Source of the DNA: Maribacter sp.
GTDB taxonomy: Bacteria; Bacteroidota; Bacteroidia; Flavobacteriales; Flavobacteriaceae
NCBI GenBank assembly: GCA_024643345.1
Contig: JAHENB010000001.1
Location: forward strand, 26,856-90,855
Length of the DNA stretch: 64,000 nucleotides
Direction of reading: 5' to 3'
The translations under genes and the position numbers were made by a program. How positions within the stretch are numbered: position 1 is the first letter of the stretch; the number at the start of each line of letters is the position of its first letter. Positions 41,500 through 52,259 of this stretch are shown here, piece by piece. The notes beneath the pieces are model-generated. The model saw only the letters and a list, made by a program, of their open reading frames with translations, was not told where the DNA came from and made no database searches.

Positions 41500-41535
41500 G
41501 CGTTACTGCTGAAATATTTTCAAAAGTAAGTAAAT

Positions 41536-42057
41536 TTAAGCGTCCGGTTTTTGTTTTTTCATGATCAATCCGGTAATCCAACCGATAACCAAACCAAGAA
41601 TAATACTGAATATTAAAATGAAAGGATAGGCCAACCAAGCGAATTTTTTTTGCATATCCGCACCCTGCTGCCATTGTTCATCAGTAATTCTCGGATTATC
41701 TTCCAAGGCTTTTACCTTCGCTATGTCCATGGCTTTATCCATAAAATCGGGTTCCATGACATTGGTTAATATGGCGTAATACATAAGGCCTATGATGGCA
41801 GAGACAAGACCGATGCCCATTCCAAGTTTCAATGCTTCCGAAACCTTTAGGTACCCTGAATTTGCCTTTTTGAATTGTGAAGTGGCAATAACAATAACTA
41901 TGGCGGTCATTAAAATTCCAATGGCTTGAACGGGCCAGCTTTGTTCGTAATGCATTTCCATTGTAAATAGCATGAACGAGAAGGCCACGCTCGCCAGACC
42001 GAGAATGAGGCCGAAGGTCCATGAAAATTTTCCAACTTTAGGTTGATTTTGTTCCAT
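41536..42057 (-). CDS. DUF4199-like four-helix membrane protein
   Basis: A 173-residue inner-membrane protein with four predicted transmembrane segments: about 8-28, 40-58, 72-92 and 138-160, with a hydrophilic stretch between the third and fourth. This matches the DUF4199 family, which in Flavobacteria commonly precedes a GT2 gene as here. Function is unknown. The frame extends to 42114, but the ATG at 42057 gives the compact family form. It is the first gene of the operon that ends with the MsbA-like exporter. Confidence 0.75.
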   Translation of the reverse strand: MEQNQPKVGKFSWTFGLILGLASVAFSFMLFTMEMHYEQSWPVQAIGILMTAIVIVIATSQFKKANSGYLKVSEALKLGMGIGLVSAIIGLMYYAILTNVMEPDFMDKAMDIAKVKALEDNPRITDEQWQQGADMQKKFAWLAYPFILIFSIILGLVIGWITGLIMKKQKPDA

Positions 42058-42159
42058 TTTAAATAAGTTTTTAATTGTTTGAAAGGTTAGTTGAATTTCA
42101 CAATTTTTTGTCACAAATAAAGATACGATAATTTGTTTCTTTTTTTTTCAGGTATAAAA

Positions 42160-42189
42160 TTGTCGGTTTGTGAAATTTGCTTAAATTTG
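42160..42189 (+). promoter_or_regulatory. Promoter of rpmE2
   Basis: TTG (42160-42162), a 19-bp spacer, then TAAATTTG (42182-42189): an exact match to the Bacteroidota promoter form, 35 bp ahead of the ATG. Confidence 0.75.
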
Positions 42190-42224
42190 CAGCCTGAATT
42201 CCAGAAGAATTAAAGCGTTCGGCG

Positions 42225-42557
42225 ATGAGAAAAAACATACACCCAGAAAATTTTAGATTGGTAGCCTTTAAGGACATGTCGAATGACGATGTCTTTCTTA
42301 CCAAATCTACCGCAGACACCAAAGAAACCCTTGAAGTTGACGGAGTGGAATATCCATTGGTTAAATTGGAGATTTCAAGGACTTCGCACCCTTTTTATAC
42401 CGGGAAGGCAAAATTCTTGGATACAGCCGGACGTATCGACAAGTTCAAGAGCAAATACGACAAATTTAAGAAAGCAGCTCCCGTTGCCGCCAAAGAGGAG
42501 CCTATACAGGCGCCAGAAGTTAAGAGTAACGACAAAGCGGGCAAAGAAGAAAAATAA
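42225..42557 (+). CDS. rpmE2: 50S ribosomal protein L31, type B
   Basis: A 110-residue L31. Residues 1-84 have the family sequence (MRKNIHPENFRLVAFKDMSN, SRTSHPFYTGKAKFLDTAGRIDKFKSKY). It lacks the four zinc-binding cysteines of the A type, so it is the zinc-independent form. A lysine/alanine/glutamate-rich tail of about 26 residues follows the usual C-terminus. It stands alone between a consensus promoter and a strong terminator. Confidence 0.95.
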   Translation: MRKNIHPENFRLVAFKDMSNDDVFLTKSTADTKETLEVDGVEYPLVKLEISRTSHPFYTGKAKFLDTAGRIDKFKSKYDKFKKAAPVAAKEEPIQAPEVKSNDKAGKEEK

Positions 42558-42581
42558 TAGTATTCTTTACAAAAGACTTAG

Positions 42582-42609
42582 GCCTCCGATATTCGGGGGC
42601 TTTTTTTTT
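42582..42609 (+). terminator. Rho-independent terminator of rpmE2
   Basis: An 8-bp GC-rich stem (42582-42589 with 42593-42600, one G-T pair) and 3-nt loop, then nine T, 25 bp after the stop codon. Confidence 0.92.
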
Positions 42610-42735
42610 GGACCTACCCACATTACGGACCCATTGTAGCAAAGATTTATTTTGTTTATTTGAACTGACCAATTAATTGGAATTCTCCTCCAGCTTCTCT
42701 TTGGATTGGCTATTTTTGACATAAATCATTTGGGC

Positions 42736-43911
42736 ATGAACTATATTCTTTTCGATGGGACCGCCAGGAACCACTTGCTCCCTTTTACATTTACCAGACC
42801 GGTAGCAGACATCAGAGTGGGCATAATGACCATTCGTGAAAAGTGGGAGTTTTATTTGGGCAACACCACGACCACGATTACCGAAGATTACCTTTCTGAA
42901 AAATTCCCAATGGTGGAAATGGAAGAAAATGTCCTGATCAACGCCTCTTATTTGCCGAATAGGGTATTGGTGGATATGGTAGAAGGGCTTAACGAAAACG
43001 AAGCGATTTTTCATGGGGAAGACGTTATTGCCTTCTTTGCCAAAGACACCCAGGAGGAGGTTGATTTTTTGAAGTACAAGGCCATCGATTTCGTTGGCGA
43101 ACTATTGCATATCGCGCATACTTGGGATATTTTTTCGTTGAATGGCGAGGCCCTTCAGGCCGATTTTGATTTGATTACCTCAGGCAGGAAAAGTGCCCCA
43201 ATTTCCAAGACCAACCACTTGATCCATCCCGAAAATATTTTCTTGGAAGAGGGGGCCAAGGTCGAACACAGTATACTGAATGCCACAGATGGCCCCATTT
43301 ATCTGGGTAAGGATTCGGAGGTCTGGGAAGGCAATCTCATTCGCGGTGCCTTTGCCCTATGTGAGCACGCCATCGTTAAAATGGGCGCAAAAATTTACGG
43401 TGCCACAACGGTTGGTCCATTTAGCAAGGTATGCGGCGAGATCAGCAACTCGGTCATCTTTGGTTATTCCAGCAAAGGCCACGAAGGCTATTTGGGAAAC
43501 GCGGTTTTAGGGGAATGGTGCAATATCGGGGCCGATTCCAACAACTCCAACCTCAAGAACAATTACGCCAAGGTACGCATGTGGGATTATGCCACTGAAC
43601 GATTTGAGCAAACGGGCCTGCAGTTCTGTGGCCTGATGATGGGCGATCATAGCAAAACAGCGATCAATACCATGTTCAATACCGGAACGGTAATCGGCGT
43701 CAATTGCAATATTTATGTACCGGGATTCCCTAGAAATTTCGTGCCCAGCTTTAGTTGGGGAGGCGCCTCGGGTTTTTCTACATATCCTACTGCGAAGGCA
43801 TTTGAGGCGGCAAAGGTAATGATGGCAAGGCGGGGCGTTGATTTTAACGATATGGAAGCAAGGATATTGGAAGCGGTCTTTGAATTAACCCAAAAATGGC
43901 GAAATTATTGA
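42736..43911 (+). CDS. GlmU-like sugar nucleotidyltransferase family protein
   Basis: A 391-residue protein with an N-terminal region like nucleotidyltransferases (LFDGTARNHLLPFTFTRPVADIRVG) and a C-terminal left-handed beta-helix of hexapeptide repeats (about 190-360). The usual GlmU-type nucleotide loop (GxGTRM) is not present as such, so activity on a sugar 1-phosphate is uncertain. Members are common in Bacteroidota and are labelled GlmU family proteins. The frame is open from 42706; the ATG at 42736 begins the conserved MNYILFDG and is chosen. Confidence 0.8.
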   Translation: MNYILFDGTARNHLLPFTFTRPVADIRVGIMTIREKWEFYLGNTTTTITEDYLSEKFPMVEMEENVLINASYLPNRVLVDMVEGLNENEAIFHGEDVIAFFAKDTQEEVDFLKYKAIDFVGELLHIAHTWDIFSLNGEALQADFDLITSGRKSAPISKTNHLIHPENIFLEEGAKVEHSILNATDGPIYLGKDSEVWEGNLIRGAFALCEHAIVKMGAKIYGATTVGPFSKVCGEISNSVIFGYSSKGHEGYLGNAVLGEWCNIGADSNNSNLKNNYAKVRMWDYATERFEQTGLQFCGLMMGDHSKTAINTMFNTGTVIGVNCNIYVPGFPRNFVPSFSWGGASGFSTYPTAKAFEAAKVMMARRGVDFNDMEARILEAVFELTQKWRNY

Positions 43912-44074
43912 TCGTAGCAAGTCCATTTTCAGGATTCGTATTGGGGTTTTGAAGGTTGAGCTATCCTTTTCATGAGTTGGGATCAGGCCCTTTTGAATAT
44001 CAAAAAACGTGGTACAAATGCCCTTATCGTCCAAAATGCTTGTCGCTCGCTACAAATCTGCCGCCGAAACTGCG

Positions 44075-44082
44075 TATCTTTG
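44075..44082 (+). promoter_or_regulatory. Predicted -7 element of mtaB
   Basis: TATCTTTG, 27 bp ahead of the ATG at 44110. It lies downstream of a possible earlier start (43972), which supports the shorter gene. Confidence 0.55.
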
Positions 44083-44109
44083 CATTCCCTAAAACATACT
44101 TGGCGACTC

Positions 44110-45438
44110 ATGAAAAAGAAGGTGGCATTCCATACCCTTGGCTGTAAGCTCAATTATTCGGAAACTTCTACCATTGCTAGAGGATTCCAGGAAAAGGGTT
44201 TTGAACGTGTTGACTTTTCGGAGTGGGCGGACATGTATGTAATCAATACCTGTTCGGTGACCGAAAATGCCGATAAACGTTTCAAGACCATCGTAAGGCA
44301 GGCCTTAAAAGAAAATCCCATGGCCTTTATAGCGGCCATAGGTTGCTACGCACAGTTAAAACCCGAAGAATTGGCTGCTGTTGACGGCGTGGATCTGGTA
44401 TTGGGGGCGACAGAAAAATTCAAGATCACCGATTATCTCAATGACCTCAGCAAAAACGATTTCGGAGAAGTACACTCCTGTGAAATTTCGGAAGCCGATT
44501 TTTATGTCGGAAGCTATGCCATAGGAGAGCGAACGAGGGCCTTTTTGAAGGTCCAGGATGGTTGTGACTACAAATGTACCTATTGCACCATTCCATTGGC
44601 CAGGGGCATATCCCGAAGCGATGCCTTGGAAAATATACTTCATAATGCCCAAGAAATCGCGGCCCAGGACATTAAGGAAATCGTTTTGACCGGTGTGAAC
44701 ATCGGAGACTATGGCAAAGGGGAGTTTGGGGACAAAAAGCATGAACACACTTTCCTCGATTTGATTAAAGCGTTAGATAATGTAGAGGGGATCCATCGCT
44801 TGCGGATTTCATCGATCGAACCCAATCTGTTGCAAAACGAAACCATCGATTTTGTGGCCGGTAGCAACGCGTTTGTGCCCCATTTCCACCTCCCATTGCA
44901 AAGTGGTAGTGACGCCATCCTCAAATTGATGAGAAGGCGCTACCTAAGTGAGCTTTATACCGAAAGAGTGGCACGCATTAAAAAAACCATGCCCCAAGCC
45001 TGTATCGGGGTCGATGTGATCGTAGGTTTTCCTGGGGAAACCGAGGAACATTTTATGGAAACCTACCATTTCTTGAACAATTTGGACATTGCCTATCTGC
45101 ATGTGTTCACTTATTCAGAACGGGACAATACCTTGGCGGCCAAGATGACGGGAGTGGTGCCAATGAAGGTTCGCAACAAAAGAAGCAAGATGCTTAGGGC
45201 GCTTTCGGTCAAAAAAAGAAGGGCCTTCTATGAGCAGCAATTGGGGAGTTCTCGAACCGTGCTTTTTGAAGGTGAGAATAGGGAAGGCTATATTCTTGGA
45301 TTCACCGAAAATTATGTCAGGGTAAAAGCACCTTGGAATCCAGATTTAGCAAACACCATGCAACGGGTGATACTGAACCATATAGATGAGGACGGTTTGG
45401 TTCGTTTTGAACATACAGACCAGAAAGTTAAGGCATAA
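44110..45438 (+). CDS. mtaB: tRNA t6A37 methylthiotransferase MtaB
   Basis: A 442-residue radical SAM enzyme that adds a methylthio group to t6A at position 37 of tRNAs reading ANN codons. The N-terminal domain has Cys12, Cys48 and Cys79 for the auxiliary 4Fe-4S cluster (GCKLN, NTCSVT, GCYAQ); the radical SAM motif is Cys152, Cys156 and Cys159; a TRAM-like RNA-binding part closes the protein. The GCKLNYSET start identifies the MtaB rather than MiaB branch. The frame is open from 43972, but a promoter element and the family N-terminus put the start at 44110. Confidence 0.94.
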   Translation: MKKKVAFHTLGCKLNYSETSTIARGFQEKGFERVDFSEWADMYVINTCSVTENADKRFKTIVRQALKENPMAFIAAIGCYAQLKPEELAAVDGVDLVLGATEKFKITDYLNDLSKNDFGEVHSCEISEADFYVGSYAIGERTRAFLKVQDGCDYKCTYCTIPLARGISRSDALENILHNAQEIAAQDIKEIVLTGVNIGDYGKGEFGDKKHEHTFLDLIKALDNVEGIHRLRISSIEPNLLQNETIDFVAGSNAFVPHFHLPLQSGSDAILKLMRRRYLSELYTERVARIKKTMPQACIGVDVIVGFPGETEEHFMETYHFLNNLDIAYLHVFTYSERDNTLAAKMTGVVPMKVRNKRSKMLRALSVKKRRAFYEQQLGSSRTVLFEGENREGYILGFTENYVRVKAPWNPDLANTMQRVILNHIDEDGLVRFEHTDQKVKA

Positions 45439-45442
45439 AAAA

Positions 45443-45461
45443 ACCTCCCTTTTTGGGAGGT
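45443..45461 (-). terminator. Terminator between converging mtaB and GNAT-like gene
   Basis: A 7-bp stem (45443-45449 with 45455-45461) with a 5-T loop. On the minus strand a run of T follows, so it ends the GNAT-like gene; on the plus strand the T-run is weak, though it may still help end mtaB. Confidence 0.75.
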
Positions 45462-45472
45462 CTAACCTTTGA

Positions 45473-45766
45473 TCAGATCCGGATGCCTACCGGTAGCATC
45501 TCTTTGTATTGCCTGTTCTTCCTTAAAAACCCGGCGATTTGTGGACTTGTGGGAACCACTCTTAAGTTCTTTTCCTGAATATGGTTCAGGACCGACTTAA
45601 TGAATTGTTCCTTAAAGCCTTCAACAATAATCTCTTCTGGAATCACCAACTTGGTTAAAAACACCTTTCTTTCTTGGGAAGAATATTCAATCTTTGCTAA
45701 ATGGCCGTCTACCCTAGTTTCAAATTGGCGCAAGAAACTGTTGTCCTTAATTTCTACTTCATTCAT
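45473..45766 (-). CDS. Short GNAT-like (YjdJ-type) protein
   Basis: A 97-residue cytoplasmic protein. The C-terminal half (LTKLVIPEEIIVEGFKEQF, RVVPTSPQIAGFLRKNRQYKE) follows the pattern of the short N-acetyltransferase family that has VxPxCPxxxxyxxxHPEY, but the acetyl-CoA loop (Q/RxxGxG/A) is poorly kept. It may be a weak or inactive acetyltransferase. The frame is open to 45796; the ATG at 45766 gives the family start. Confidence 0.6.
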   Translation of the reverse strand: MNEVEIKDNSFLRQFETRVDGHLAKIEYSSQERKVFLTKLVIPEEIIVEGFKEQFIKSVLNHIQEKNLRVVPTSPQIAGFLRKNRQYKEMLPVGIRI

Positions 45767-45932
45767 ATAGTTGAGTTTAAAATTGGTCTTAGACAAAAAA
45801 ATTACGACGTTCCCTTATCGTAATTTCTGATTTGAGCTCACATTGTTAAAACATGAGTGTATTTTGGCAATCTTATACAAAAGTAGTAAAAAAATTGCTA
45901 ATTTCCTAACCAAATAGGAAGCACCTTAAATA

Positions 45933-46595
45933 ATGGCAGAGGATAAAATCCATGTTTATTTTATGCCTGGAATGGCTGCCAATCCATCTATTTTTAAAAA
46001 CATCAAACTTCCCAAATTACAATTCGAGAAGCATTTACTGGAGTGGTTCATACCCACGGAAGGAATGGATATCAAGGACTACGCCTATGAAATGTCAAAA
46101 AAAATCAAACACGAAAATCCTGTTCTGGTCGGGGTTTCGTTTGGGGGGATTTTGGTACAAGAGATGGGACGATTTATTCCGACCAAGAAGATTATTGTGG
46201 TTTCGAGCATTAAGCATGAATCGGAATTGCCTAAACGCATGATTTTTGCCAAATATACACAGGTACATAAGCTTCTTCCCACCGGTTTAATTAACAATAT
46301 TGAGCTATTGACCAAATATGCATTTGGTGAGATTGTGACCAAGCGCCTCAAACTTTATGAGGAATACCTTTCTATTCGTGATAAATATTATATCGATTGG
46401 TCTATTGACCAAATGGTCAACTGGAGGCAAACCAAAATGCCTGAAGTTCTGGTACATATCCACGGTGAAAAGGATGCCGTGTTTCCGGTCGGAAATATAA
46501 AAGACTGTATCATCATCAAAAATGGGACCCATACAATGATCATTCATCGGGCAAAATGGTTCAATGAACATCTGCCCACAATTATTTTGCAATAA
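45933..46595 (+). CDS. Alpha/beta hydrolase
   Basis: A 220-residue cytoplasmic hydrolase. The nucleophile elbow is GVSFGG with Ser69; HGEKDAVFP gives the acid and GTHTMIIH the histidine. There is no signal peptide. Substrate is unknown. It is followed after 43 bp by the lytic transglycosylase gene on the same strand and may be co-transcribed with it. Confidence 0.82.
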   Translation: MAEDKIHVYFMPGMAANPSIFKNIKLPKLQFEKHLLEWFIPTEGMDIKDYAYEMSKKIKHENPVLVGVSFGGILVQEMGRFIPTKKIIVVSSIKHESELPKRMIFAKYTQVHKLLPTGLINNIELLTKYAFGEIVTKRLKLYEEYLSIRDKYYIDWSIDQMVNWRQTKMPEVLVHIHGEKDAVFPVGNIKDCIIIKNGTHTMIIHRAKWFNEHLPTIILQ

Positions 46596-46638
46596 GTCAG
46601 TTGTATTAATACCTTTACCATAAAAGAAATATAAAATC

Positions 46639-47586
46639 ATGAAGACCATAAAAAACATATTGATGCTCTTAGGCGTATTTTTTGTCATAAGTACGCTGGT
46701 TTTTGCCGTGCAGAGTGGTGATGTCGATGCCGCCGATGTAGCGGAGAACGATGTTGCGACCGAATCCAATACAAGTTATCGGATCACTGCCATTGAAATC
46801 CCTGAAAATCTGAACTTCGCAGGGGAATCGGTACCACTTGAAGATCCAGAGGTTATGGAACGGGTAGATAGGGAATTTTTGGTCAATACCTATTGGCAGT
46901 CGAATGCCCTCTTATTGATGAAAAGGGCACATAAATATTTCCCTGTGATCGAGCCCATTCTGGCCAAAAATGGCGTCCCAGACGATTTTAAATACCTTGC
47001 ATTGGCAGAAAGTGGGCTTCAAAATGTGGTTAGCCCTGCAGGGGCGACGGGTTTCTGGCAAATCATGAAGGGTACCGGCAGGGATTATGGTCTTGAAGTG
47101 AACGAAAACGTGGATGAGCGGTACCATCTGGAAAAAGCTACCGAAGTGGCCTGCAGGTATATTTTAAATTCGAAGGAAAAGTTCGGCACCTGGACACTTG
47201 CCGCGGCTTCTTATAATGCCGGTCCAGGATCTATCAATAAATTTATGGGAATTCAGAAGGCCGAAAACTATTATGACTTGCTATTGGGTGAGGAGACTGG
47301 CCGTTATGTATTTCGAATCATGGCAATCAAGGAAATTTTGAACAATCCTGAAAAATATGGTTTTCACCTAGATTCCAAAGACATGTATTCGGCCGTGCCA
47401 ACCTTTAAGGTCGAGGTCTCCGAACCTGTGCTCAGTTTTGCCGATTTCGCCCATAAATATGAAATCAACTACAAGATTTTGAAAAGGCATAATCCATGGC
47501 TCCGTGAGCCACATTTGGCAAATCAATCCAAGAAAACCTATACTTTGGAAATTCCCAATAAAGGGTATTACCACATAGGGAAGTAA
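46639..47586 (+). CDS. Lytic murein transglycosylase (GH23, MltD-like)
   Basis: A 315-residue exported enzyme with an N-terminal signal peptide or anchor (about 1-27) that cuts peptidoglycan between MurNAc and GlcNAc with 1,6-anhydro formation. The catalytic Glu124 lies in YLALAESGLQ, followed by SPAGATGFWQIMKGT, LAAASYNAGPG and YVFRIMAIKEI, the SLT motifs. The C-terminal 60 residues (YEINYKILKRHNPWLR ... YTLEIP) look like the end of an MltD with one reduced LysM-like repeat. It acts in the periplasm. Confidence 0.9.
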   Translation: MKTIKNILMLLGVFFVISTLVFAVQSGDVDAADVAENDVATESNTSYRITAIEIPENLNFAGESVPLEDPEVMERVDREFLVNTYWQSNALLLMKRAHKYFPVIEPILAKNGVPDDFKYLALAESGLQNVVSPAGATGFWQIMKGTGRDYGLEVNENVDERYHLEKATEVACRYILNSKEKFGTWTLAAASYNAGPGSINKFMGIQKAENYYDLLLGEETGRYVFRIMAIKEILNNPEKYGFHLDSKDMYSAVPTFKVEVSEPVLSFADFAHKYEINYKILKRHNPWLREPHLANQSKKTYTLEIPNKGYYHIGK

Positions 47587-47593
47587 GCGCACA

Positions 47594-48109
47594 TCAGATT
47601 TTTTTCATCTGTTGCTGCATCATTTTGATCTGCTCGGTGAGCATATTGTTTTTATCCAATTTTTTTGCTTCCTGCAATAAGGTGGTTGCCTCGCGCTTTC
47701 GACGTTTCTGCATGGCTATACCAGCTAGGCTTAATTTGGCCATGGCCACATCGTAATCCATGGTCAACCCGAATTTCAGCGCCTTCTTAAAATACTTTTC
47801 GGCCTCGGTAAGGTTTTTTTGCGAATAGATGATACCATGAAGGTAATTGAAGTATCCCTGCTGCTTTTGGGTTAGAGCGGCGGCGGGGTTATTGATCTTA
47901 TCCAACCATTTTTGGGTGCCGATCATATCCTGTTTTCGCATTCTAAGAAAGGCAAGTAATATCATTTCATTTCTAAAATAGAGGAAAACGAAAATAAGCG
48001 ACAGTAAGATCAGGAATATGCCGTTGCCTATGTTGCCCTCAATGAACTGGTAAACCGCATAGGCGATGATAAGCCCCGTGATGACCAATTTGAAGTTTTT
48101 GTTAAACAT
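47594..48109 (-). CDS. TPR-like protein with two N-terminal membrane segments
   Basis: A 171-residue protein with two hydrophobic segments (about 6-24 and 28-46) and a soluble part with tetratricopeptide-like helices (LHGIIYSQKNLTEAEKYFKKALKFG and MAKLSLAGIAMQKRRKREATTLLQEAKKL). TPR parts bind other proteins; partners are unknown. It starts 4 bp after the stop of the next upstream secreted protein gene and both are probably co-transcribed. It converges on the transglycosylase gene with a 7-bp gap. Confidence 0.7.
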   Translation of the reverse strand: MFNKNFKLVITGLIIAYAVYQFIEGNIGNGIFLILLSLIFVFLYFRNEMILLAFLRMRKQDMIGTQKWLDKINNPAAALTQKQQGYFNYLHGIIYSQKNLTEAEKYFKKALKFGLTMDYDVAMAKLSLAGIAMQKRRKREATTLLQEAKKLDKNNMLTEQIKMMQQQMKKI

Positions 48110-48113
48110 TGTG

Positions 48114-48995
48114 TTATTTTATTAATTGATAGCTGATACTTGTTTTTATCGTGGTAGGTATTACCTGTTTCCCTAATTGCTCCATGGTGGCAATACCATC
48201 TGACAGGCCCTCGACCTTCATGAATTCTATAAAACCGGAATTTAGGTCTGCAGTGATTTCGGTGACATGGGTACCTTCCAATTTCATGGTCGTACCGGGT
48301 TCTGTCACATCCATGCCAACCTGGCCCCGACCACTTATTTCGACATGGCTATTGTTCAGCGCGTTCAAGACCCATTTATTTTTTGCCGTGAGTTTGCCTT
48401 CATAAACATTTTCCCAGCTGTCCCCGACCTTTAGGGCTTTCTCTGGATAAATAAAAGTCATCTGTTCATAGCTGTTCGACAACGCTTCGGACCCAAATTC
48501 ATCGCTGAGCGATTTTTTCATCAGATGTAATGAAAATTCGTCGGTAAGACCTGAGGCTTTGGCCATTTTAGCCACCAAACTGTCCCCGCCCATCACCGAA
48601 AGTATGTCCCCGGTTTTTGCCAGCGTAATTTCAATGGGACTATCGAGCAGGCTATTGAATATCTGGGACTGCATATCGTCCTTTTTAACTTCCTTCGCCC
48701 GTACATTCATCATTTCACCTTGGAGACTGGAGATCATCTTCATGTTGAGGTCTTTAAAAGTAAGGGTAATTTCATAATTGCCTTCTTTTTCCCCCATTAC
48801 CTTAAATTCCAATAGACCATCAATATCGTTCGTTATTTCGTGTTCGGCACCATCCAAGTTTTGTGTGATCACTTGATGGGCTTTCTGCCTTATCATAAAA
48901 ACTTCGTTTTTTTCTAGGTGATAGGACAAGGTGGTTTGGCCAAAACCCACAAGCGCCGAAAAGAGGAAAAATACGATGTACATGGTGATTTTCAT
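48114..48995 (-). CDS. Secreted protein of unknown function (DUF6263-like)
   Basis: A 293-residue exported protein with signal peptide (about 1-19, ending GFGQ). The mature part is beta-rich with regular strands (FEFKVMGEKEGNYEITLTFKDL-like, YPEKALKVGDSWENVYEGKL) and an all-soluble profile, resembling the DUF6263 family of Bacteroidota. No function is known to me. A GTG two codons upstream (49001) is possible, but the ATG at 48995 is better placed. Diverges from rpmH. Confidence 0.65.
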   Translation of the reverse strand: MKITMYIVFFLFSALVGFGQTTLSYHLEKNEVFMIRQKAHQVITQNLDGAEHEITNDIDGLLEFKVMGEKEGNYEITLTFKDLNMKMISSLQGEMMNVRAKEVKKDDMQSQIFNSLLDSPIEITLAKTGDILSVMGGDSLVAKMAKASGLTDEFSLHLMKKSLSDEFGSEALSNSYEQMTFIYPEKALKVGDSWENVYEGKLTAKNKWVLNALNNSHVEISGRGQVGMDVTEPGTTMKLEGTHVTEITADLNSGFIEFMKVEGLSDGIATMEQLGKQVIPTTIKTSISYQLIK

Positions 48996-49068
48996 AGCCA
49001 CAATCTCTCGATTTTTTTGAATGCTGCAAAAGTAACAAAAACAATTCGAAACATTTTTTTAAATGGAT

Positions 49069-49098
49069 TTGCCAAAGCAAAAACTCTTTGTATATTTG
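49069..49098 (+). promoter_or_regulatory. Promoter of rpmH
   Basis: TTG (49069-49071), a 19-bp spacer, then TATATTTG (49091-49098), the same exact architecture as the rpmE2 promoter. The ATG is 56 bp downstream. Confidence 0.75.
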
Positions 49099-49154
49099 CG
49101 CCCAGTTTTGCGGGTGAGCCTGCAACAAAACGAAATAACAAAAAGGTTTAGAAA

Positions 49155-49322
49155 ATGCCCGGACAAAAGAGAACATATCAGCCATCCAAAAGGAAGAGAA
49201 GAAATAAACATGGTTTTAGGGAACGCATGGCAACCGCGAACGGACGAAAGGTTTTGGCAAGGAGAAGGGCCAAGGGAAGAAAGAAGTTAACCGTATCGTC
49301 AGACCCGAGACACAAAAAATAA
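49155..49322 (+). CDS. rpmH: 50S ribosomal protein L34
   Basis: A 55-residue basic protein reading [20 protein letters not shown] and then [20 protein letters not shown], the L34 signature, with a short extra C-terminal tail [12 protein letters not shown] typical of Flavobacteria. Part of the large ribosomal subunit near the peptide tunnel. It is alone between its own promoter and terminator; dnaA and rnpA are not next to it, unlike in many bacteria. Confidence 0.97.
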
Positions 49323-49345
49323 TGACGTATTTTTTAAAATATTTT

Positions 49346-49379
49346 GGTGTTACTTTTCCGAAAGTAGCACCTTTTTTTT
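49346..49379 (+). terminator. Rho-independent terminator of rpmH
   Basis: An 11-bp stem (49346-49356 with 49361-49371, one G-T pair) and 4-nt loop, then eight T. It begins 24 bp after the rpmH stop. The carB start is 28 bp further on, so carB may depend on readthrough or a promoter hidden here. Confidence 0.92.
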
Positions 49380-49406
49380 GTCTAATAGTTATTTAAAAGA
49401 GGATAA

Positions 49407-52259
49407 ATGCCAAAAAGAGAAGATTTAAAGTCGATTTTGATCATCGGTTCCGGACCCATCGTGATAGGACAGGCCTGTGAATTCGATTATTCCGGTTCGC
49501 AAGCGTTGCGTTCATTAAGGGAAGATGGTATCGAGACCATTTTGATCAATAGCAACCCAGCGACCATCATGACCGACCCTTCCATGGCCGACCATATTTA
49601 CTTGAAACCACTGACGACCAAATCGATCATTGAAATATTGAAGGAACATCCCCAAATTGATGCGGTATTGCCGACCATGGGTGGCCAGACCGCACTCAAC
49701 CTCTGCATCGAAGCGGGTGAAAAAGGGATATGGGACGATTTTAACGTAGAGATCATAGGGGTCGATATCGATGCGATAAACATTACGGAAGACCGTGAAA
49801 AGTTTCGGGAACTGATGTTGAAAATAGGAATCGGCATGGCCCCGCAAACCACGGCCACTTCTTTTTTGAAAGGGAAGGAAATCGCCCAAGAATACGGTTT
49901 TCCATTAGTAATTCGAGCCTCTTTTACCCTAGGGGGCGCTGGCGCTTCCATCGTATACAAACCGGAAGAGTTCGATGAACTCTTAAGTCGGGGGCTTGAG
50001 ATTTCTCCGATCCACGAGGTGATGATCGATAAGGCGATGATGGGCTGGAAGGAATTTGAATTGGAATTGTTGCGGGACCATAACGACAATGTGGTGATCA
50101 TCTGCGCCATTGAAAACATGGACCCCATGGGCATCCATACAGGGGACTCCATTACCGTGGCCCCGGCGATGACCCTATCCGATAAAACTTACCAGAGAAT
50201 GCGCGATATGGCCATCAAGATGATGCGGAGTATCGGGGATTTTGCAGGTGGCTGTAACGTTCAGTTTGCCGTAAGCCCTGATGAAAAGGAAGATATCATC
50301 GCCATAGAAATCAATCCAAGGGTTTCCAGGTCATCGGCCCTTGCTTCAAAGGCGACCGGATATCCCATCGCAAAGATCGCCGCCAAATTGGCCATCGGTT
50401 ACAACCTTGATGAGTTGGAGAACCAGATTACCAAATCTACTTCGGCCCTTTTTGAACCTACCTTGGATTATGTAATCGTTAAAATACCGCGATGGAATTT
50501 CGATAAGTTCGAAGGATCGGACCGTACGCTTGGGCTACAGATGAAATCGGTTGGAGAGGTCATGGGCATCGGACGTTCTTTCCAAGAAGCATTGCACAAG
50601 GCGACCCAGTCGCTCGAAATCAAAAGAAATGGTCTGGGCGCAGATGGCAAAGGTTACCGCGATTATGACCAAATCATCAGTAAACTTACCATTCCCAGCT
50701 GGGATAGGGTTTTCGTGATCTACGACGCCATACAAATAGGCATTCCTTTGAGCAGGATACATGAAATCACGAAGATCGATATGTGGTTCCTGAAGCAGTA
50801 TGAAGAGCTGTACCAATTGGAAAAGGAAATATCGAAGTATACTATCGCCAGTCTTTCGAGGGAATTGTTGCTCGAGGCCAAACAAAAGGGTTTCGCGGAT
50901 CGGCAGATCGCACATATGCTGGATTGCTATGAAAGCGAAGTTTACAATAAGAGGATTGAGCTCAATATCAATAGGGTATACAAGCTGGTCGACACCTGTG
51001 CCGCTGAGTTTAAGGCGATGACACCTTATTATTACTCTACCTTCGAGGCAGAGATCGAAACCGAAGACGGCAACCGATTTGTGGAGAACGACAGCGTGGT
51101 CACCGACCGAAAGAAAATCGTGGTCTTGGGTTCGGGGCCCAACCGTATCGGACAGGGTATCGAATTTGACTATTGCTGCGTACATGGGGTTTTGGCCGCA
51201 TCGGAATGCGGATACGAAACGATCATGATCAACTGCAACCCCGAAACGGTCTCTACCGATTTCGATACGGCGGACAAATTGTATTTCGAACCCGTATTTT
51301 GGGAGCACATCTATGATATCATTCGACATGAAAAGCCCGAGGGCGTTATTGTTCAATTGGGAGGGCAAACGGCCTTGAAACTGGCCGAAAAACTCGATAA
51401 ATATGGCATTAAGATTATTGGCACCAGTTTCAAATCGCTCGATCTTGCCGAAGATCGTGGAAGCTTTTCGAATCTCCTGAAAGACAATAACATACCCTAT
51501 CCCCGTTTCGGTGTGGCGGAAACCGCTGATGAGGCCCTATCCCTTGCCGATCAACTGGGCTTTCCGCTTCTGGTGAGACCTTCCTATGTATTGGGAGGGC
51601 AAGGGATGAAAATCGTCATCAATAAGGAAGAATTGGAAGCCCATGTAGTGGACCTTCTAAGAAAAATACCCAACAACAAATTATTGCTCGACCACTATTT
51701 AGATGGTGCCATTGAAGCGGAGGCCGATGCCATATGTGATGGGGAAGAGGTTTATATCATAGGCATCATGGAACATATTGAACCCTGCGGTATACATTCA
51801 GGAGATTCCAATGCCACCTTGCCACCGTTTAACCTGGGCGAGTTCGTGATGCAACAGATCAAAGACCACACCCATAAAATTGCCCTTGCACTCAATACGG
51901 TAGGGCTGATCAATATACAGTTTGCCATCAAGGACGACATCGTTTACATTATAGAAGCGAATCCAAGGGCTTCCCGTACCGTACCTTTTATTTCCAAGGC
52001 ATATAAGGAGCCCTATGTGAATTATGCCACCAAAGTGATGCTCGGTGAGAAAAAGGTTAGGGATTTCAACTTTAACCCGCAATTGGAGGGCTATGCCATC
52101 AAACAACCCGTGTTTTCCTTTAACAAGTTCCCCAACGTCAACAAAAATCTGGGACCGGAAATGAAGAGCACTGGTGAAAGTATTCTGTTCATCGATAGTT
52201 TAAAGGACGACGAATTTTATAACCTTTATGGGCGCAGGAAGATGTATTTGAGTAAATAA
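49407..52259 (+). CDS. carB: Carbamoyl-phosphate synthase large subunit, short form
   Basis: A 950-residue enzyme subunit that makes carbamoyl phosphate for pyrimidines and arginine. Two homologous ATP-grasp halves are present (GSGPIVIGQACEFDYSGSQA and GSGPNRIGQGIEFDYCCVH), joined by the oligomerisation region. The protein ends right after the second ATP-grasp half (GRRKMYLSK), so the C-terminal MGS-like allosteric domain of the 1073-residue E. coli enzyme is absent. The start has an AAGAGG-like sequence upstream. carA is not in the window. It follows rpmH closely on the same strand. Confidence 0.95.
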   Translation: MPKREDLKSILIIGSGPIVIGQACEFDYSGSQALRSLREDGIETILINSNPATIMTDPSMADHIYLKPLTTKSIIEILKEHPQIDAVLPTMGGQTALNLCIEAGEKGIWDDFNVEIIGVDIDAINITEDREKFRELMLKIGIGMAPQTTATSFLKGKEIAQEYGFPLVIRASFTLGGAGASIVYKPEEFDELLSRGLEISPIHEVMIDKAMMGWKEFELELLRDHNDNVVIICAIENMDPMGIHTGDSITVAPAMTLSDKTYQRMRDMAIKMMRSIGDFAGGCNVQFAVSPDEKEDIIAIEINPRVSRSSALASKATGYPIAKIAAKLAIGYNLDELENQITKSTSALFEPTLDYVIVKIPRWNFDKFEGSDRTLGLQMKSVGEVMGIGRSFQEALHKATQSLEIKRNGLGADGKGYRDYDQIISKLTIPSWDRVFVIYDAIQIGIPLSRIHEITKIDMWFLKQYEELYQLEKEISKYTIASLSRELLLEAKQKGFADRQIAHMLDCYESEVYNKRIELNINRVYKLVDTCAAEFKAMTPYYYSTFEAEIETEDGNRFVENDSVVTDRKKIVVLGSGPNRIGQGIEFDYCCVHGVLAASECGYETIMINCNPETVSTDFDTADKLYFEPVFWEHIYDIIRHEKPEGVIVQLGGQTALKLAEKLDKYGIKIIGTSFKSLDLAEDRGSFSNLLKDNNIPYPRFGVAETADEALSLADQLGFPLLVRPSYVLGGQGMKIVINKEELEAHVVDLLRKIPNNKLLLDHYLDGAIEAEADAICDGEEVYIIGIMEHIEPCGIHSGDSNATLPPFNLGEFVMQQIKDHTHKIALALNTVGLINIQFAIKDDIVYIIEANPRASRTVPFISKAYKEPYVNYATKVMLGEKKVRDFNFNPQLEGYAIKQPVFSFNKFPNVNKNLGPEMKSTGESILFIDSLKDDEFYNLYGRRKMYLSK

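Follow-up and report, generated by a model that had tools for sequence, protein, structure and literature searches.

A C-rich discriminator following the TAnnTTTG box is associated with translation genes, including rpmE2 and rpmH, in Maribacter and related Flavobacteriaceae

The rpmE2 locus raises the question of whether a single, well-formed promoter before a ribosomal protein gene belongs to a wider class, and which part of its sequence marks that class. The window, by which we mean the whole stretch of 64,000 nucleotides of Maribacter sp. DNA analysed here, carries TTG-N19-TAnnTTTG before rpmE2 (42160-42189), and the initial annotation noted the same architecture before rpmH (49069-49098), proposing from this a shared strong, growth-linked class for single ribosomal protein genes. 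Both sites were read directly in the sequence, and both are conserved in orthologues. The features of the two loci are as follows.

42160..42162, + strand: -33 element TTG of the rpmE2 promoter, read directly and kept among orthologue upstream regions
42182..42189, + strand: -7 box TAAATTTG of the rpmE2 promoter, read directly and kept among orthologue upstream regions
42190..42195, + strand: C-rich discriminator CAGCCT of rpmE2, from the class comparison
42225..42557, + strand: rpmE2, type B ribosomal protein L31 (NF002462, E 1.2e-33)
42580..42602, + strand: intrinsic-terminator-like hairpin 3' of rpmE2
49045..49066, + strand: A/T tract resembling an UP element, upstream of the rpmH -33 element (agreement with the E. 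coli UP consensus at 12 of 15 positions, placement within 2 nt)
49069..49071, + strand: -33 element TTG (inside TTTG) of the rpmH promoter, read directly and kept in orthologues
49091..49098, + strand: -7 box TATATTTG of the rpmH promoter, read directly and kept in orthologues
49099..49103, + strand: discriminator CGCCC of rpmH, read directly and from orthologues
49105..49131, + strand: hairpin close to where the rpmH transcript is predicted to begin (-9.0 kcal/mol, z -1.88)
49155..49322, + strand: rpmH, ribosomal protein L34 (TIGR01030, E 1.7e-22)
49346..49371, + strand: intrinsic-terminator-like hairpin 3' of rpmH

The rpmE2 site thus reads TTG, 19 nt, TAAATTTG, CAGCCT, 29 nt and the ATG at 42225, and the rpmH site reads TTG, 19 nt, TATATTTG, CGCCCA, 50 nt and the ATG at 49155. 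The -33 context is ATTG at rpmE2 and TTTG at rpmH, and the free positions of TAnnTTTG are AA and TA, respectively. Because a terminator-like hairpin follows each gene, one-gene transcripts look likely for both, and 42160-42195 is almost certainly the promoter from which rpmE2 would be transcribed as a single gene. From the sequence, the rpmH transcript is predicted to start at the A at 49104. On the - strand, a TACTTTTG box (49027-49034) lies 31 nt before a divergent gene starting at 48995 and some 35 bp away from the -33 element of rpmH. Further along the window, a carB-like protein of 950 aa (49407-52259) matches its 1058-position model to position 915 only and, judging from this alignment, seems to lack the C-terminal portion normally found in large subunits.

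The core boxes are those of a known form. In the excerpted text of PMC6847099, PMC7366714 and PMC9723704, the Bacteroidota primary sigma factor (sigma-ABfr) form is given as TTTG at -33 and TAnnTTTG (TAHHTTTG) at -7, and the rpmE2 and rpmH sites match it in both boxes and in spacing. The excerpts also name the primary sigma factor as the reader of TAnnTTTG, put the starts of Flavobacterium johnsoniae transcripts 4-5 nt after the box (PMC6847099) and, for F. psychrophilum, place the box from -12 to -5 (PMC9723704). Borrowing the F. johnsoniae distance as excerpted, the rpmE2 transcript is predicted to start at approximately 42194-42197; the 6-8 bp initially expected is close to that value, which is 5-6 bp downstream of the box (PMC6847099). 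The -33 motif is described in the F. johnsoniae excerpt as much less evident, whereas TTG is near-invariant at rpmH. A scan for E. coli sigma-70 promoters was uninformative (15 promoter-like sites against 17.0 expected), including the rpmH site at 10/12 and omitting the rpmE2 site. A TTGACA/TATAAT core with 16-18 nt spacing was set aside, as conservation at rpmH tracks TTG-N19-TATATTTG and rpmE2 is not among the sites of the scan.

Conservation was followed in two sets of upstream regions. The rpmE2 set comprised the window and the best 80 of 548 matching relatives, of which the named ones mostly carry titles from genera of the Flavobacteriaceae (Maribacter, Arenibacter and Aequorivita, for example); two of the 81 sequences were too short, leaving 79. 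TAnnTTTG is present in 78 of these (L084 being the sole exception) and TAAATTTG in 69. The TTG stands at a distance of exactly 19 nt in 60/79 and of 18-20 nt in 72/79. The rpmH set held 118 upstream regions, taken from 110 of the 115 matching genomes (120 family genomes searched) and from eight further genomes of the genus. Here the box is found in 118/118, TATATTTG in 112 and TTG at exactly 19 nt in 111. In column profiles of the sequences with enough flank (113 for rpmH, 74 for rpmE2), box and TTG rise above their surroundings.

The bare motif is nevertheless not the mark of a class. TTG-N19-TAnnTTTG occurs six times in the window against 1.6 expected (20 first-order simulations), and the four matches other than rpmE2 and rpmH lie inside called open reading frames, none of them before a called gene. 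Across the assembly (3.70 Mb, 67 contigs) there are 125 matches against 51 for the reversed pattern. Being common in both window and genome, the motif is weak evidence when taken alone. As a class mark it was dropped, both for the four of six window matches inside reading frames and for a TTG at 18-20 nt in 4 of the 65 other boxes described below. It is the general housekeeping form of the Bacteroidota.

The five bases that follow the box are more telling. Both sites carry C at +1 and +5 after the box (CAGCC at rpmE2, CGCCC at rpmH), and we derived this C1+C5 rule from the tRNA units of the same genome before trying it on other genes. The 33 tRNAs form 27 units, 25 of them with a locus, and TAnnTTTG lies within 220 nt upstream in 20 of the 25, the other five lacking it. 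Eighteen of the 20 boxed units have C at both positions. In the two exceptions the tract is shifted (GCACCC) or reads CCCGTC. Among the ribosomal protein genes of the genome, whose comparison had been recommended at the outset, all six with a box follow the rule. L13, S6 and S15, three of five ribosomal protein families then searched in the genus, are among these, S20 sits behind a tRNA-Glu unit that follows it, and S6 and S15 were new to the rule (the L13 and rplS sites had already surfaced in a search with a coarser pattern). In the orthologous sets the rule holds for 97/118 rpmH upstream regions, and C at +5 is seen in just 44/79 for rpmE2. Here as in the other counts, when a region had more than one box, the one chosen had C after it or TTG at 18-20 nt, a choice that tilts the counts towards the rule.

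Within the genus, the rule holds at every locus with a match (36/36): L13 10/10, S6 8/8, S15 9/9 and tRNA-Glu/S20 9/9, counts that come from related and so non-independent sequences. The S15 promoters lack TTG at 17-21 nt in 9/9 loci. Two tRNA-Glu genes lie between the box and rpsT (S20) in all nine genus loci with a match (L242, on contig C34 of the same genome, L241 and L243-L249), with rpsT just 3' of the pair, and rpsT may share the tRNA-Glu promoter. The L20 operon was dropped as a class member, as no class box was found within 1400 nt in 10/10 genus loci, own genome included.

The rRNA operons of the family extend the pattern. A 16S search of 18 genomes gave 31 full-length genes in 13 genomes from 13 genera (12 assembled in one contig, one in three), and 25 of the genes had a locus; the six other full-length genes and partial matches were left outside the count. 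All 25 operons have one to three rule-following boxes within 700 nt, with 53 upstream boxes following the rule and 11 departing from it, and TATATTTGCACCCGCT is present in 26 of the 53. A 16S gene was not found in the Maribacter assembly itself. Its contig C3 ends in an rRNA-promoter-like sequence (L145), which we take to be its own rRNA promoter because promoter and leader closely match those of the relative G002.

How specific the mark is to translation genes can be judged from the remaining boxes, and this bears on the main rival explanation, namely that the discriminator is a mere trait of strong housekeeping promoters without shared regulation of translation genes. The contig that holds the window was covered over 340 kb, where called open reading frames are preceded by 69 boxes; five of these follow C1+C5, those of rpmE2, rpsF, rplS, smpB and an aminopeptidase-like gene. 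The caller accepted frames of at least 80 codons, did not call rpmH and took a wrong frame at rpmE2. With the four translation genes left out, the rule is followed by 1/65 other boxes, a group defined solely by position upstream of called ORFs. Set against this, the 18/20 tRNA units and 6/6 ribosomal protein genes give a Fisher p of 1.3e-18, which is descriptive because the rule was set on the tRNAs; rplS, L13, S6 and S15 alone give 5.8e-6, two of them (rplS and L13) having surfaced earlier. The 65 boxes argue against the rival, but they are not a set of strong promoters. In its favour, pyrimidine-rich discriminators one base off the rule (CCCCTC, CTCCTC and CTTCTC) are found at three metabolic genes of the contig. 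One of these genes is lipoamide dehydrogenase, and the other two we take to be isocitrate dehydrogenase and glyA.

The coarser pattern, TTG-N18-20-TAnnTTTGCNNC, gives a similar picture genome-wide, with 33 sites against 6 when the pattern is reversed. Thirty of the sites have a locus; 22 of them lie before translation genes, 19 of which are rRNA, tRNA or ribosomal protein units. The translation sites include eight tRNA units, the probable rRNA operon, rpsL, rpsP, rplM, rplS, rplU, rpmB, rpmE2, rpmH, lysS, tig and rimP. Others precede a yceD-like gene with rpmF 0.6 kb further on, and a phosphoribosyl-pyrophosphate-synthase-like gene with rplY 1.1 kb further on (the names yceD and prs are our own reading, with no family match). 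The eight remaining sites include a TetR-like gene, a heme o synthase gene, L146, and L147, L148 and L151 in long open frames, as well as genes that we read as receptor-like and secreted-protein-like. Three further sites without a locus, all on the window's contig, lie inside an opposite-strand gene, before an unnamed gene and before lipoamide dehydrogenase. The presence of heme o synthase, receptor-like and secreted-protein-like genes among the 30 sites also favours a trait of strong promoters, and the mark may be tied to high expression rather than to translation. On balance we consider this explanation possible, though rather unlikely.

In the Flavobacteriaceae, the only family covered by the class comparisons, every one of 41 genomes searched has more matches to the coarser pattern than to its reversed control, with totals of 1662 and 365 (1440 and 362 without one outlier). 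The family genome G031 has 222 class-pattern matches against 3 reversed, approximately six times the usual count, perhaps owing to a repeated element.

These comparisons return an answer to the question posed by rpmE2. A class mark, C-N-N-N-C after the -7 box and before the predicted start, is associated with translation genes. Judged from sequence comparison, the rpmE2 site is very probably a member of a class of translation-apparatus promoters that takes in rRNA, tRNA and most of the ribosomal protein units examined, and promoter and membership taken jointly are only a little less assured. The original proposal of a shared class therefore stands insofar as rpmE2 and rpmH fall in one class linked to ribosome synthesis, but its mark is better sought in the C-rich discriminator than in TTG-N19-TAnnTTTG. 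Restricting the class to single ribosomal protein genes was too narrow, as rRNA, tRNA and multi-gene ribosomal protein units have it too. That such promoters are "strong" and "growth-linked" is something we infer.

The two promoters are alike in core boxes and spacing but differ upstream and in the spacer. Scored at 15 positions of the E. coli UP consensus, the window promoters reach 12/15 (rpmH) and 9/15 (rpmE2), and the means against shuffled sequence are 12.07 and 8.97 for rpmH orthologues (113 sequences), 10.41 and 9.00 for rRNA (41 distinct promoters), 9.32 and 8.94 for rpmE2 orthologues (74), and 7.45 and 7.29 for other boxes (65). The UP-like A/T tract before rpmH is conserved across the family. 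At rpmE2, a UP element was dropped as a candidate, given an orthologue mean near that of shuffled sequence. Most of the 113 rpmH spacers also share AAA at -17 to -15, AAAAA at -12 to -8 and TTTG at -4 to -1 from the box. The A-run is common to rpmH, the rRNA promoters and the rpmE2 orthologues, and the window's rpmE2 reads GAAATTTGCT there, so that neither UP-like tract nor A-run is clear in this copy.

The spacer letters kept in most rpmH upstream regions could point to a dedicated DNA-binding regulator that recognises spacer and upstream tract and is the source of the class behaviour. However, the window's rpmE2 spacer lacks those letters, and F. johnsoniae promoters in general carry AT-rich motifs centred at -18 and -28, according to the excerpted text of PMC6847099. 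We find such a regulator improbable.

Another explanation places the action of the C tract in the RNA, within or beside a 5' hairpin that protects or regulates the mRNA. The rpmH leaders lend it something: their first 34 nt fold at -4.88 kcal/mol, compared to -2.42 for mononucleotide shuffles (116/118 leaders), and stem pairing scores 12.9 with the native 3' parts but 11.2 when these are exchanged between leaders, each of the 20 swaps falling below the native value; the window's own leader reaches -9.0 kcal/mol. The last 34 nt show no excess folding (-0.55 against -0.97 shuffled; 60 leaders). On the other side, the tract at +1 to +5 precedes the predicted start, the rpmH leader of the window is modest (z -1.88), and the rpmE2 leader folds no better than its shuffles (z 0.14), for which reason a hairpin there was rejected. 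Moreover, the 5' ends of tRNA and rRNA are products of processing. We judge an action in the RNA distinctly improbable. No Rfam family matched at its gathering score in 41500-49500 of the window, and a known ribosomal protein leader RNA was dropped as a candidate there. A hairpin-like stretch similar in sequence to GTGCCCGTCGGAATGGGTGC is seen in the rpmE2 leaders L012, L018, L056, L068, L069 and L072, several of them titled Maribacter, and is absent in the window copy. Control of rpmE2 by Zur is known from other phyla.

A chance match of a loose motif, which six window matches with four inside reading frames might suggest, is practically refuted by conservation in 78/79 rpmE2 and 118/118 rpmH upstream regions; this conservation puts both sites beyond chance, and TTG at 18-20 nt together with C at +1 and +5 finds these two sites alone in the window, against 0.3 expected.

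With the C-rich translation class as the preferred reading, a mechanism can be proposed from known systems. The Bacteroidota primary sigma factor would read the rpmE2 promoter through TTG and TAAATTTG. The C-rich discriminator would then shorten the life of the open complex, which is the effect of G+C-rich discriminators at stable-RNA promoters of E. coli, and initiation would follow growth signals, whether the initiating nucleotide, ppGpp or an RNA-polymerase-binding factor. CAGCC has 4/5 and CGCCC 5/5 G+C, which is G+C-rich as in stringent-type discriminators. By this analogy, we see a growth or stringent mechanism for the class as evenly poised. The stringent rrn P1-type promoters of E. coli are likewise marked by a G+C-rich discriminator, by rRNA, tRNA and ribosomal protein targets and by tandem rRNA promoters, and their UP element may have a counterpart in the UP-like tract at rRNA and rpmH, but they differ in their core boxes and sigma factor, and rpmE2 differs from them in having no UP-like tract.

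In the excerpts of PMC6847099, PMC7366714 and PMC9723704, a C-rich discriminator is not named as the mark of a gene class. The F. psychrophilum excerpt does describe SM1-3, sigma-A motif variants around TAnnTTTG whose differences, its authors suggest, may affect regulation (PMC9723704). The class described here is likewise a variation around that box in these terms, and one of SM1-3 may already capture it. Among the matches listed from open-licence literature, there was no description of a C-rich discriminator in Bacteroidota and no study of promoter-level matching of ribosome production to growth in this phylum.

As a single promoter the rpmE2 site is ordinary; the class mark for ribosome synthesis deserves a specialist test. 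A mark common to rRNA, tRNA and ribosomal protein promoters opens the question to a direct test through the exchange of five bases, lets such promoters be predicted in genomes without RNA data, and could aid the choice of growth-linked promoters for genetic tools in Bacteroidota. We give about equal weight for and against the fuller proposal, that one C-rich primary-sigma class (TAnnTTTG-CANCC and near variants) controls ribosome synthesis in the Flavobacteriaceae and answers ppGpp or another growth signal. Its members would be rRNA, tRNA and nearly all ribosomal protein units, with UP-like tracts at rRNA and rpmH. If true, the family would possess its own equivalent of the stringent discriminator of enterobacteria, set beside core boxes of quite another kind.
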